NCBI GenBank assembly: GCA_944349765.1
Contig: CALVNN010000012.1
Coordinates: forward strand, 1-32,500
Length of the DNA: 32,500 nt
Reading direction: 5' to 3'
From: an uncultured Clostridia bacterium
GTDB taxonomy: Bacteria > Bacillota > Clostridia > Christensenellales > UBA1242
Of the stretch, positions 24,956-27,436 are shown in pieces (position 1 is the stretch's first letter; every line of letters begins with the position of its first letter). The position numbers and the translations under genes were made by a program. The notes below the pieces were generated by a model, which worked only from the letters and a program-made list of their open reading frames with translations, was not told the origin of the DNA and made no database searches.

Positions 24956-25792
24956 TTATCTTGTATTTTCTTTTTCAAGTGACATTGCACTCTGCTCTAC
25001 TGGTCTGTAGTAATCGGCACAAATATCTTTATCCTTTAGAGCTTCAAGCACCATTTCTTTAGTAATAGTCGGTTTTTTATAGAGCCCTGCAAGTGCTCGA
25101 AAATCTCTCTGATGAAATTTCGCATCTTGTGAATTGATAGCGTAACTATTCATTAAAGTGTGCCCATTATACTCATCCTTATACACGTCATTGAGTCCCA
25201 ACATATGAGCTATCTCGTGAAGTATAATACGCCTAATATTATGTACTCCGCCTTTTTCTATATCCTCAGTATTTATGAATACTTTTCCTATAACATTCTT
25301 ATTTAGCACCATCCTACTAAAAGGTGTAGCTACCCTAGCACCAGCATAAGCTGTCTCATCAATATTTTCTCTATTGACACTTATCCATTCATCTTCAAGT
25401 GGTAATATTCTTATATCACCCTCACCTTGTACTATTTTGAATTTGTAATCGTCATTTATGAGTTCAAAAGCTCTATTTAGATATTCGACATTCTGCGCTG
25501 TTGCTTCGTGATACTTTTCATCCAGCTTGTCACTAACACTTATAGCTATTCCATCTTTCTTTGCAAACCATGTATTATAACCATGAAAATTCCTATCAAA
25601 TAATAAATTACTATCTACCTCAAGTTCGCTTAAATCTTTTGCAGTTACAGTAGGATCTTTTGGCTCTACATAATCTTTCAACTGAGTCTCAGAAGCAAGA
25701 GCAATAGACGTAAAAGTCAAACCAGTTACCATTGCTATTGTCAAATTTGTGGATGTCGTCTTTAAAAATGATTTAATCTTGCCTTTTTTCAT
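24956..25792 (-). CDS. Secreted metzincin-type zinc protease
   Basis: 278 aa with a Sec signal peptide: a basic start (MKKGKIKSFLKTT), a hydrophobic core (about 18-33) and a probable cut after ALA at residue 33. The catalytic motif is H192-E193-x2-H196-x2-G199-x2-D202 (HEIAHMLGLND), the metzincin form with Asp as third ligand, as in snapalysin-like peptidases. A probable Met-turn is M214 in TLMNSY. The fold resembles matrixins, but the sequence outside the motif is not recognised. No LPxTG or membrane anchor follows, so it is likely released. AGGTGAG before its ATG overlaps the stop of the upstream stub, suggesting that it was once translationally coupled to a tandem copy. Confidence 0.85.
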   Translation of the reverse strand: MKKGKIKSFLKTTSTNLTIAMVTGLTFTSIALASETQLKDYVEPKDPTVTAKDLSELEVDSNLLFDRNFHGYNTWFAKKDGIAISVSDKLDEKYHEATAQNVEYLNRAFELINDDYKFKIVQGEGDIRILPLEDEWISVNRENIDETAYAGARVATPFSRMVLNKNVIGKVFINTEDIEKGGVHNIRRIILHEIAHMLGLNDVYKDEYNGHTLMNSYAINSQDAKFHQRDFRALAGLYKKPTITKEMVLEALKDKDICADYYRPVEQSAMSLEKENTR

Positions 25793-25798
25793 AAATTC

Positions 25799-25870
25799 TC
25801 ACCTTATATTGTCTTTTTCTATGTTACTATAGTAATCAGCTACATAGTTTTTATCTTTTAAAAAATTCAT
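25799..25870 (-). pseudogene. C-terminal stub of a metzincin paralogue
   Basis: The minus strand reads MNFLKDKNYVADYYSNIEKD and ends at a TGA at 25799-25801. This matches the C-terminal tail of the neighbouring protease (ALKDKDICADYYRPVEQ). Homology stops at about 25870, exactly where a transposase remnant begins on the other strand. It is best read as the end of a tandem protease copy whose remainder was lost through an IS insertion and deletion. It is too short to be a functional gene. Confidence 0.75.
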
Positions 25871-26146
25871 GGAACCATATTACATTCAGACCAGGGTTTC
25901 CAATACACATCTTACGAATACAAAGCTATTTGTGAATCCAATGGAATACAAATCTCTATGTCTAGAAAAGGCACTCCTATTGACGACTCTCCAATGGATA
26001 GTTTTCATGGAATTCTCAAAAAAGAAACTTTGTATAATAATGATATCAAAAGTTTACAAGAATATCAAGCACTAGTCGAAGATTGGATTGAATTCTATAA
26101 CACAAAAAGATTAAAAAATAGGAAGAAATCTAAAATTTCTTCCTAG
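25868..26146 (+). pseudogene. IS3-family transposase OrfB remnant
   Basis: The open frame encodes HSDQGFQYTSYEYKAICESN, then SMSRKGTPIDDSPMDSFHG, then LKKETLYNN and a final WIEFYNTKR. This is the C-terminal third of an IS3/IS150-type integrase, including the HSDQG catalytic Asp. The usual catalytic Glu of the NAxMESF block is Asp here (SPMDSF). The first two thirds, OrfA and the left inverted repeat are missing, and the end runs into KNRKKSKISS and a stop. A dead fragment; no intact copy is in the window. Confidence 0.85.
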
Positions 26147-26156
26147 TGGTTTTTTA
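26120..26156 (+). terminator. Hairpin at the 3' end of the IS remnant
   Basis: AGGAAGAAAT (26120-26129) pairs with ATTTCTTCCT (26135-26144), followed by GTGGTTTTTT. It overlaps the last codons of the transposase remnant and looks like the element's own terminator. Confidence 0.65.
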
Positions 26157-26160
26157 TTTT

Positions 26161-26190
26161 TAGTGACCCCTACGGGGTTCACTTCAACGT
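26161..26190. repeat. Probable right end of the IS remnant
   Basis: TAGTGACCCCTACGGGGTTC contains an imperfect GTGACCCC/GGGGTTCAC dyad and lies just after the transposase frame, where IS3-type elements keep their right inverted repeat. No left partner remains to confirm it. Confidence 0.4.
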
Positions 26191-26210
26191 TCTTAGGGAT
26201 TTTTATATAC

Positions 26211-26233
26211 CTTACTACCATAGAGGTAATAAG
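26211..26233 (-). other. Stem-loop after rpsI
   Basis: CTTACTACC (26211-26219) and GGTAATAAG (26225-26233) form a 9-bp stem, perfect with one G-U pair when read as minus-strand RNA. It lies just downstream of rpsI. There is no long T run, so it may be a processing or stabilising hairpin rather than a full terminator. Confidence 0.5.
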
Positions 26234-26243
26234 ATAATATTTA

Positions 26244-26927
26244 TTAACGTTTACTAAATTGAGGTGCTTTACGAGCTTTGTGTAAACCGTATTTTTTACG
26301 CTCTTTAGCTCTAGCATCACGAGTTAAGAAACCAGCTTTCTTGATCTCAGCTTTGTAGTTTTCATCAAACTTAACGATAGCTCTAGCTACGCCAAGTCTA
26401 ATAGCACCAGCTTGACCAGTAAGTCCGCCACCAGACACATTTACATATACATCGAACTTCTTCTCTAGATCAACCAAAGTCAAAGGTTGCTTAGATACTT
26501 GTATCAAAGTAGCTAATGGGAAATACTCCTCAATCTTACGCTTATTAACAACAAACTTACCCTCGCCAGGTATCAATCTAACTCTAGCGATAGACTTCTT
26601 ACGACGACCAGTACCTAAGTATTGAATAGTCTTATCCTTAGCTACAGCGGTCTTCTTAGTAGTCTTCTTAGCTGGAGCCTTTTCAGCTTTCTCAGCTTTT
26701 TCAGCTGTAGCTTTCTTAGTGGTAGTTTTAGCCTTAGTGGTCTTCACAGCTTTTTCAGTCGTATCAGCCTTTTCAGCTTTGGTAGTCTTAGTAGCTTTAG
26801 TTTTTGTAGCCTTAGCTTCCTTTTCAGCACCCTCAGCTTTTTCAGCTGCAGCTTTCTTAGTAGCTCTCTTTGGCTTAGCTTCTGCTTCTACTTCAGCAGT
26901 TACAACATCTTTCTCTAAATCTGCCAT
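26244..26927 (-). CDS. rpsI: 30S ribosomal protein S9 (uS9), N-terminally extended
   Basis: Small-subunit protein whose C-terminal tail reaches the P-site tRNA. The core begins near residue 98 ([19 protein letters not shown]) and keeps [17 protein letters not shown] and the terminal APQFSKR. Total length is 227 aa against about 130 for usual S9. The first 97 residues are almost only Ala, Lys, Thr and Glu, with repeats such as AEKAEKA and KKTTKKT, similar to H1-like basic tails. The start at 26927 is supported by GGAGA, which lies 9 nt upstream and overlaps the last codons of rplM; no later in-frame ATG occurs before the core. It forms the standard L13-S9 pair with rplM, with a 2-bp gap. Confidence 0.95.
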
Positions 26928-26929
26928 TC

Positions 26930-27373
26930 TTACTTATCTCCTTTTGTAAGCTTTAAAACTTCAGGCTTTTGAGCTTGGTGACCGTGCTCACTACCAGCGT
27001 ATACCTTAAGCTTCTTAATCATTTTGCGACCTAAGCTATTCTTAGGCATCATACCTTTTACCGCTTCATACACAGCAAATTCAGGTTTCTTGCTCATAAG
27101 AGTCTTGTATTGAACTTCTTTCAATCCACCAACATAACCTGAATGATGACGATAGTACTTGTCTTCCAATTTATTACCGGTCAAAACGATATCTTTACAG
27201 TTAATTACAATAACAAAATCACCCGTATCAACATGCGGAGTATAGGTAGGCTTAGATTTGCCAGTAAGCACCATAGCTACTCTACTAGCAAGACGTCCTA
27301 AAGTCTCACCTGAAGCGTCTACAATGTACCACTTCTTCTCCACTGTTTGGGGATTAGCCATATATGTCTTCAT
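26930..27373 (-). CDS. rplM: 50S ribosomal protein L13 (uL13)
   Basis: Large-subunit assembly protein, 147 aa. Signatures include [38 protein letters not shown] and the [13 protein letters not shown] block. I start at ATG 27373 (MKTYMANPQ), preceded by GGAG. A TTG at 27388 is in frame but overlaps that ribosome site. It is the first gene of the rplM-rpsI operon, behind a perfect consensus promoter and a leader of about 110 nt. Confidence 0.97.
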
Positions 27374-27436
27374 AATAATCTTCTCCAAACTTTTAAATTT
27401 TTCATTTACTTCAAATTCAAAGGTAATTTTATCAGT

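Follow-up and report, generated by a model that had tools for sequence, protein, structure and literature searches.

How the 3' part of an IS3-family transposase gene came to adjoin the last codons of what appears to be a second protease gene is the question raised by positions 25,799 to 26,190 of the window, i.e., of the whole 32,500-nt stretch of DNA from an uncultured Clostridia bacterium that was analyzed here. The window belongs to one contig (C12) of a draft assembly of 977 kb in 30 contigs, 93% complete, and a search within the genus, of which the source genome is the sole representative, returned no second genome for comparison. A sequence-only reading of the segment had proposed that the protease gene was duplicated, that an insertion sequence (IS) entered one of the copies, and that both the left part of the IS and the 5' part of the gene were then deleted. 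The reading preferred here, which we regard as quite probable, is that three events left their scar in this segment: the presence of tandem proteases, insertion of an IS into the terminator of rpsI, and one deletion. The features on which the argument draws are the following:

24956-25792, minus strand: intact, exported metzincin-like protease of 278 aa (open reading frame; HEIAHMLGLND motif)
25799-25861, minus strand: stub, putatively all that is left of a protease paralogue located upstream, i.e., its final 20 codons and the stop codon (protein-level match, nucleotide blocks)
25862-25867, no strand: putative deletion junction, belonging to neither side (between the end of stub homology at 25861 and that of IS identity at 25868)
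25868-26186, plus strand: right part of an IS3-family element, about 320 of about 1231 bp (comparison with intact copies)
25871-26146, plus strand: 3' part of the OrfB transposase, still open, with its natural C-terminus KISS* (profile match, relatives' copies)
26119-26145, no strand: predicted bidirectional terminator hairpin in the IS right end, overlapping the OrfB stop codon (terminator scan, folding)
26174-26186, plus strand: IS right inverted repeat GGGGTTCACTTCA (intact copies)
26187-26204, minus strand: probably one arm, with A/T-run, of the split rpsI terminator (IS flank; relatives' intact terminator)
26244-26927, minus strand: rpsI, ribosomal protein S9 (open reading frame; matched in 30/30 genomes)
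26930-27388: rplM, upstream of rpsI (open reading frame)

The protease gene and the stub beside it

The intact protease owes its provisional metzincin name to a motif, the HExxHxxGxxH/D zinc motif, present here as HEIAHMLGLND; the HExxHxxGxxD form is common to the homologues of the family (12 ORFs in family neighbourhoods). Its matches to the Pfam models Matrixin and Zincin_1 (E 0.0013) stay under the curated cut-offs, as do those to NCBIfam, a single weak match (E 0.043) was obtained against the sequences of solved structures, and a single-sequence structure model, with a mean pLDDT of 34, is too poor to show a Met-turn fold. A homologue is found in 15 of the 297 family genomes, the source genome being counted among them. 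In 12 of the 13 protease neighbourhoods fetched, a scan for HExxHxxGxxD ORFs detected one such ORF, and in the last (L288) it detected none.

The minus strand from 25861 to 25799 translates as LKDKNYVADYYSNIEKDNIR, to be compared with the C-terminus of the intact protease, LKDKDICADYYRPVEQSAMSLEKENTR: both share LKDK..ADYY, followed by a gap of 7 codons, then EK.N.R and the stop. Homology of this tail to the end of the neighbouring protease, as first noticed from the letters alone, is thus confirmed, and is longer than had been described. Although the stub is only 20 residues long, its resemblance to the gene exceeds what chance would give. Among the 31,179 stop-free six-frame 12-mers of the window, that of the stub scores highest against the corresponding 12-mer of the gene, with a BLOSUM62 score of 42 versus 25 for the runner-up, and the stub's global score of 50 was reached by none of 20,000 shuffles (maximum 23). 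At the nucleotide level, two aligned blocks display 22/33 and 17/21 identical positions (39/54 overall, or 72%), but a plain nucleotide local alignment is weak, its score being reached by 108 of 2,000 dinucleotide shuffles; the case for the stub is therefore made by the protein-level match together with the shared stop region. Taken together, these comparisons support the identification of the stub as the tail of a protease paralogue.

The arrangement of the stub relative to the intact gene also is informative. The stub ends 6 nt before the start codon of the intact protease, whose presumed Shine-Dalgarno sequence, AAGGTGAG (25805-25798), lies 5 nt before this codon. The stop codon of the stub is located inside this presumed Shine-Dalgarno sequence, as in a tandem pair, which suggests a tandem protease operon in which the paralogue probably came first; in this respect, the idea that a copy of the protease lies behind the stub fares well. 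From sequence identities, the split between the two paralogues looks older than the IS event: the aligned nucleotides of the paralogues are 72% identical, those of the IS fragment and the copies closest to it 87-92%.

The IS3 element and its target sites

The IS fragment retains an intact right end and has lost about 910 bp on the left. The plus-strand frame at 25871-26146 matches the NCBIfam IS3 model NF033516 (E 5.3e-30, 104.9 bits, profile positions 276-359 of 369), remaining under the 160-bit full-length cut-off because it is truncated, as well as Pfam rve_3/rve_2. Its DNA is 87-92% identical to copies in four relatives, and identity to the intact copies stops at 25868, so that the claim that the transposase begins where the stub homology ends is true to within 6 nt (25868 versus 25861). 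Intact copies are about 1231 bp long, with the ends TGAAGTGAACCC...GGTTCACTTCA; these are 5'-TG...CA-3' ends with inverted repeats, the right one being found in the window as well, where the layout of the right end is the same. In relatives, OrfB is 257 aa long from its ATG. One intact copy (L022) carries orfA at 602-958 and orfB at 1000-1773 in frames 2 and 1, respectively, which places orfB in the -1 frame of orfA, and the 288-codon open frame of orfB overlaps orfA. In the same locus, hairpins resembling each other in inverted orientation occur at positions 630-675 and at the right end (self-matches 47-92 reversed), and both read as terminators. No orfA is present in the window, and the remnant cannot transpose, since its left end and most of the transposase are missing.

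The right-end hairpin of the remnant accounts for 2 terminator-like sites where 0.2 are expected, and folds at -12 to -13 kcal/mol. That the C-terminus of the transposase was cut off by a host terminator was considered as well, given that its reading frame ends in a hairpin, and rejected, as the full copies of relatives end alike.

A transposase match of some identity is present in 48 of the 297 family genomes. A search of a plasmid collection returned relatives less than 60% identical. The family loci fetched correspond to those matches that reach an IS end; with flanks sharing their first 25 nt counted once, and the solitary 28-mer loci L108-L111 omitted, they give 65 distinct ends, the window included. 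A T-run, defined as five or more consecutive T whose first lies 4-20 nt beyond the inverted repeat, is found just outside 61 of these 65 ends, versus 13.6% of outer positions in the same loci and 18.7% of intergenic ones. The other four ends are L113, L121, L122, and L126, the first three of which have a run of four T at this place. In addition, an ORF of at least 80 codons reading toward the IS ends within 100 nt of it at 42/65 ends, a raw count without control.

When both flanks of an element are oriented outward they are alike, i.e., they are the arms of one hairpin, as with ATTTGCTATG/ATTTGCTATG in G161. Separate contigs pair as the two sides of one site in four genomes (G280 C61/C51, G016 C10/C4, G099 C1/C15, and G206 C42/C49), which, with G161, G071:C53b, and G128, brings the double-ended sites to seven. 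At six of them, a target duplication of 3-4 bp was recognized by eye (G071:C53b AAA, G128 GTCG, G280 TAA, G016 GTGT, G099 AAAT, and G206 AATT), and that of G161, likewise by eye, is only 2 bp (AT). The range for the IS3 family is 3-5 bp.

The same pattern holds in a wider set of 80 loci, assigned by most of their record titles to Clostridia and Bacilli, whose transposases are 62-100% identical by best segment. T-runs flank 46/58 left ends and 38/53 right ends in this set (control 11.7%), and, for the 38 of the 80 loci with enough flank at both ends and a recognizable inverted repeat, left and right flanks form matching arms (score of at least 8) in 30 cases, versus 12% of mismatched pairs. The arms differ from site to site, their common feature being a hairpin and a T-run. 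The terminator-preferring lineage thus extends beyond the family, into Clostridia and Bacilli. At least two more distant IS3 elements of the family (L037 and L041), only about 40-43% identical, have A-run arms outside their ends; some of the other elements at about 40% identity lack such arms. From L037 and L041, the preference for terminators may be older than the clade studied here.

Insertion site, deletion, and competing histories

What lies on the right side of the remnant bears directly on where it inserted. The genes there are those that we take to be rpsI and rplM, by recognition of their proteins. Only 57 nt separate the IS right end from the rpsI stop, and this flank is rpsI 3' sequence, not protease; its sequence, ACGTTCTTAGGGATTTTT, fits the terminator-arm pattern. 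Directly after rpsI, an intrinsic terminator (score of at least 11) is present in 24 of the 27 relatives that were parsed, the end of rpsI not being located in 2 of 29. As for the three others, L296 has none by this criterion, with a hairpin of longer loop visible by eye, L314 has a weak one only (score 7), and L316 none, and the latter two look misparsed. By the same criterion, there is no terminator between rpsI and the IS in the window, where a second stable hairpin devoid of T-run follows rpsI at about 26208-26236. Taken alone, a T-run at the window site would have a 14-19% chance of occurring. The most likely landing site of the IS is thus the rpsI terminator, given that nearly all ends of this IS lie in terminators and that half a terminator flanks it in the window. 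With regard to rpsI itself, positions 26640-26927 encode a long, repetitive Lys/Ala-rich N-terminal extension on ribosomal protein S9, and a longer rpsI open frame is seen in G016 and some other relatives as well.

The history that we favor would start with an old state in which rplM-rpsI was followed by a tandem pair of protease genes. An IS3 element with a strong preference for terminator loops would then have entered that of rpsI, with its transposase gene oriented against rpsI; the preference comes from the comparison of copies, and the insertion itself is inferred from the half hairpin at 26187-26204. In the latest event, a single deletion would have joined the interior of the IS to the tail of the paralogue, thereby removing the left 910 bp or so of the IS, the other arm of the terminator, and the upstream protease except its last 20 codons and stop. 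Judging from the full lengths of IS and protease gene, this deletion would have been at least about 1.7 kb in size. The retained codons and the presumed ribosome-binding site of the remaining gene overlap, and this may explain the endpoint of the surviving deletion. In the present state, transcription of rplM-rpsI probably ends at the bidirectional hairpin in the right end of the IS instead of at the split terminator and, if so, the surviving protease would need its own promoter; 3 promoter-like sites are found near it versus 2.7 expected, i.e., not above chance.

An IS inserted within the upstream protease, later deletions taking the left part of the IS and the 5' part of the gene, is the history initially read from the segment. 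It draws on the fact that the stub and the IS fragment adjoin, and the opposite orientation of IS and protease is compatible with either version. However, the 5' part of the gene would then be expected to the right of the IS, where the intact end at 26186 runs instead into the rpsI 3' flank with its terminator arm, leaving no room for it. Such a history would also require a second deletion that stops exactly where the IS does, together with an insertion into a coding region, when nearly all sampled IS ends are in terminators. It was thus rejected on account of its right flank, and we consider it very improbable. The loss of the left part of the IS stands, but a separate deletion of the 5' part of the gene is not needed, as a single one suffices.

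Two other explanations spare either the tandem pair or the locus as a whole. The stub could come from a partial tandem duplication or capture of the protease 3' end, the IS deletion having stopped nearby by chance, and the rarity of the gene in the family speaks in its favor, as does the failure to find a tandem pair in relatives: none of the 13 neighbourhoods fetched has one by the HExxHxxGxxD ORF scan, and a scan of genome contigs with the protease as query revealed no relative. Nevertheless, the layout of stop codon and ribosome-binding site fits a tandem operon instead, and the 7-codon length difference together with 72% nucleotide identity suggests a gene that evolved separately, which makes this explanation unlikely, if by no means negligible. 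An assembly artefact, i.e., two unrelated loci joined at a mobile element, is conceivable in a 30-contig draft, all the more so as IS copies break contigs in many relatives, but here the joined sequences meet within the IS, where there is neither a repeat nor the edge of one, the homology of the stub to a gene 6 nt away assigns both sides to the locus, and the genome shows no other right-part copy that could form a bridge; we give this explanation hardly any credence. The reading as tandem proteases, terminator insertion, and one deletion is thus retained, while no relative with tandem proteases, or with an intact IS at the window site as had been looked for on the earlier interpretation, was found among the family genomes searched. 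The locus is a real but ordinary decaying remnant, whose history is corrected here.

Minimal relics and comparison with known elements

Relics are all that the source assembly shows of this element, namely the roughly 320 bp of the window, an 89-bp left end (C11:9925-10013, i.e., L140 2426-2514) with a T-run and terminator arm outside it, and a 28-bp palindrome (C23:1653-1680) located in a terminator loop with an ATCA duplication. No intact copy was seen in it, which may be a gap of the draft. By eye, the C11 relic lies near a tRNA-like sequence. With 3 mismatches allowed, the 28-bp pattern matches in 31 of the 297 genomes, IS right ends included. The solitary units, consisting of the C23 one and 26 others (loci L249-L275), are mostly found in terminator loops; flanking duplications of at least 3 bp occur at 17/27 of them versus 4.6% of mismatched pairs, and a T-run is present on at least one side in 27 of 28 units, one IS right end being counted with the 27 solitary ones. 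The 28-mer consists of the outer 8 nt of the IS left end and the outer 20 nt of the right end, back to back, a composition as expected from recombination at the shared AGTGA. The equivalent product of sister elements was seen in 0/29 genomes, which counts against a simple scar view. The 28-bp palindromes may thus be either near-precise excision scars or a mobile minimal unit.

Several known systems resemble parts of this picture. In the nearly precise excision of Tn10, an internal deletion between short repeats leaves fused ends, whereas the 28-bp relic occupies terminator loops and recurs in many genomes. Group IIC introns insert at intrinsic terminators, and in this are alike; they are retroelements, inserted beside the hairpin in an RNA-mediated manner, and differ in using no transposase. 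There is also a likeness with IS1397, ISKpn1, and ISPsy8, described as having IS3 transposases and a strict preference for palindromic intergenic DNA (PMC1525189). The IS1397 type recognizes particular REP sequences, whereas the element studied here does not have one repeated palindrome family as its target, and uses terminators of unrelated sequence in AT-rich Clostridia and Bacilli. IS1272/TnSha1, of the IS1182 family, also target stem-loops, often terminators, with no primary sequence consensus (PMC4923244). IS1272 has an IS1182-family transposase and its insertion deletes part of the stem without duplication, unlike the present element, which has an IS3 transposase and duplicates 3-4 bp. 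In one further case, an insertion carrying an ISL3-family element at its end was reported in an rRNA terminator (PMC11702846). No report of a terminator-specific IS3 element was found in the open literature, subscription journals and ISfinder lying outside this scope, and the target preference of this IS3 lineage looks undescribed so far.

A tentative generalization, which we put forward as possible rather than probable, is that a widespread IS3 clade of Clostridia and Bacilli recognizes terminator hairpins by their structure (as a cruciform or folded strand) irrespective of sequence, and inserts into the loop with a 3-4 bp duplication, that its own bidirectional terminators keep the host operon insulated, and that the same transposase moves the 28-bp end-to-end units. 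Were these units indeed moved by a transposase, few mobile DNA units would be smaller. Many IS elements are harmful to the genes that they enter; for small dense genomes, a large IS3 lineage targeting terminator loops, and bringing replacement terminators with it, would clearly illustrate a low-cost choice of target. This lineage would also lend itself to testing how the shape of a hairpin, instead of its sequence, can be recognized by an IS3 transposase, and calls for caution with the terminators of such genomes, which may in part be IS-made. Elsewhere in the window, palindromic repeats (CCCTTCCGGGAGACCCTTCGACTTCGCTCAGGGTGACATAATAGGGTCGGTCGTTCTA and the inverse sequence) are densely arrayed at positions 59-990.
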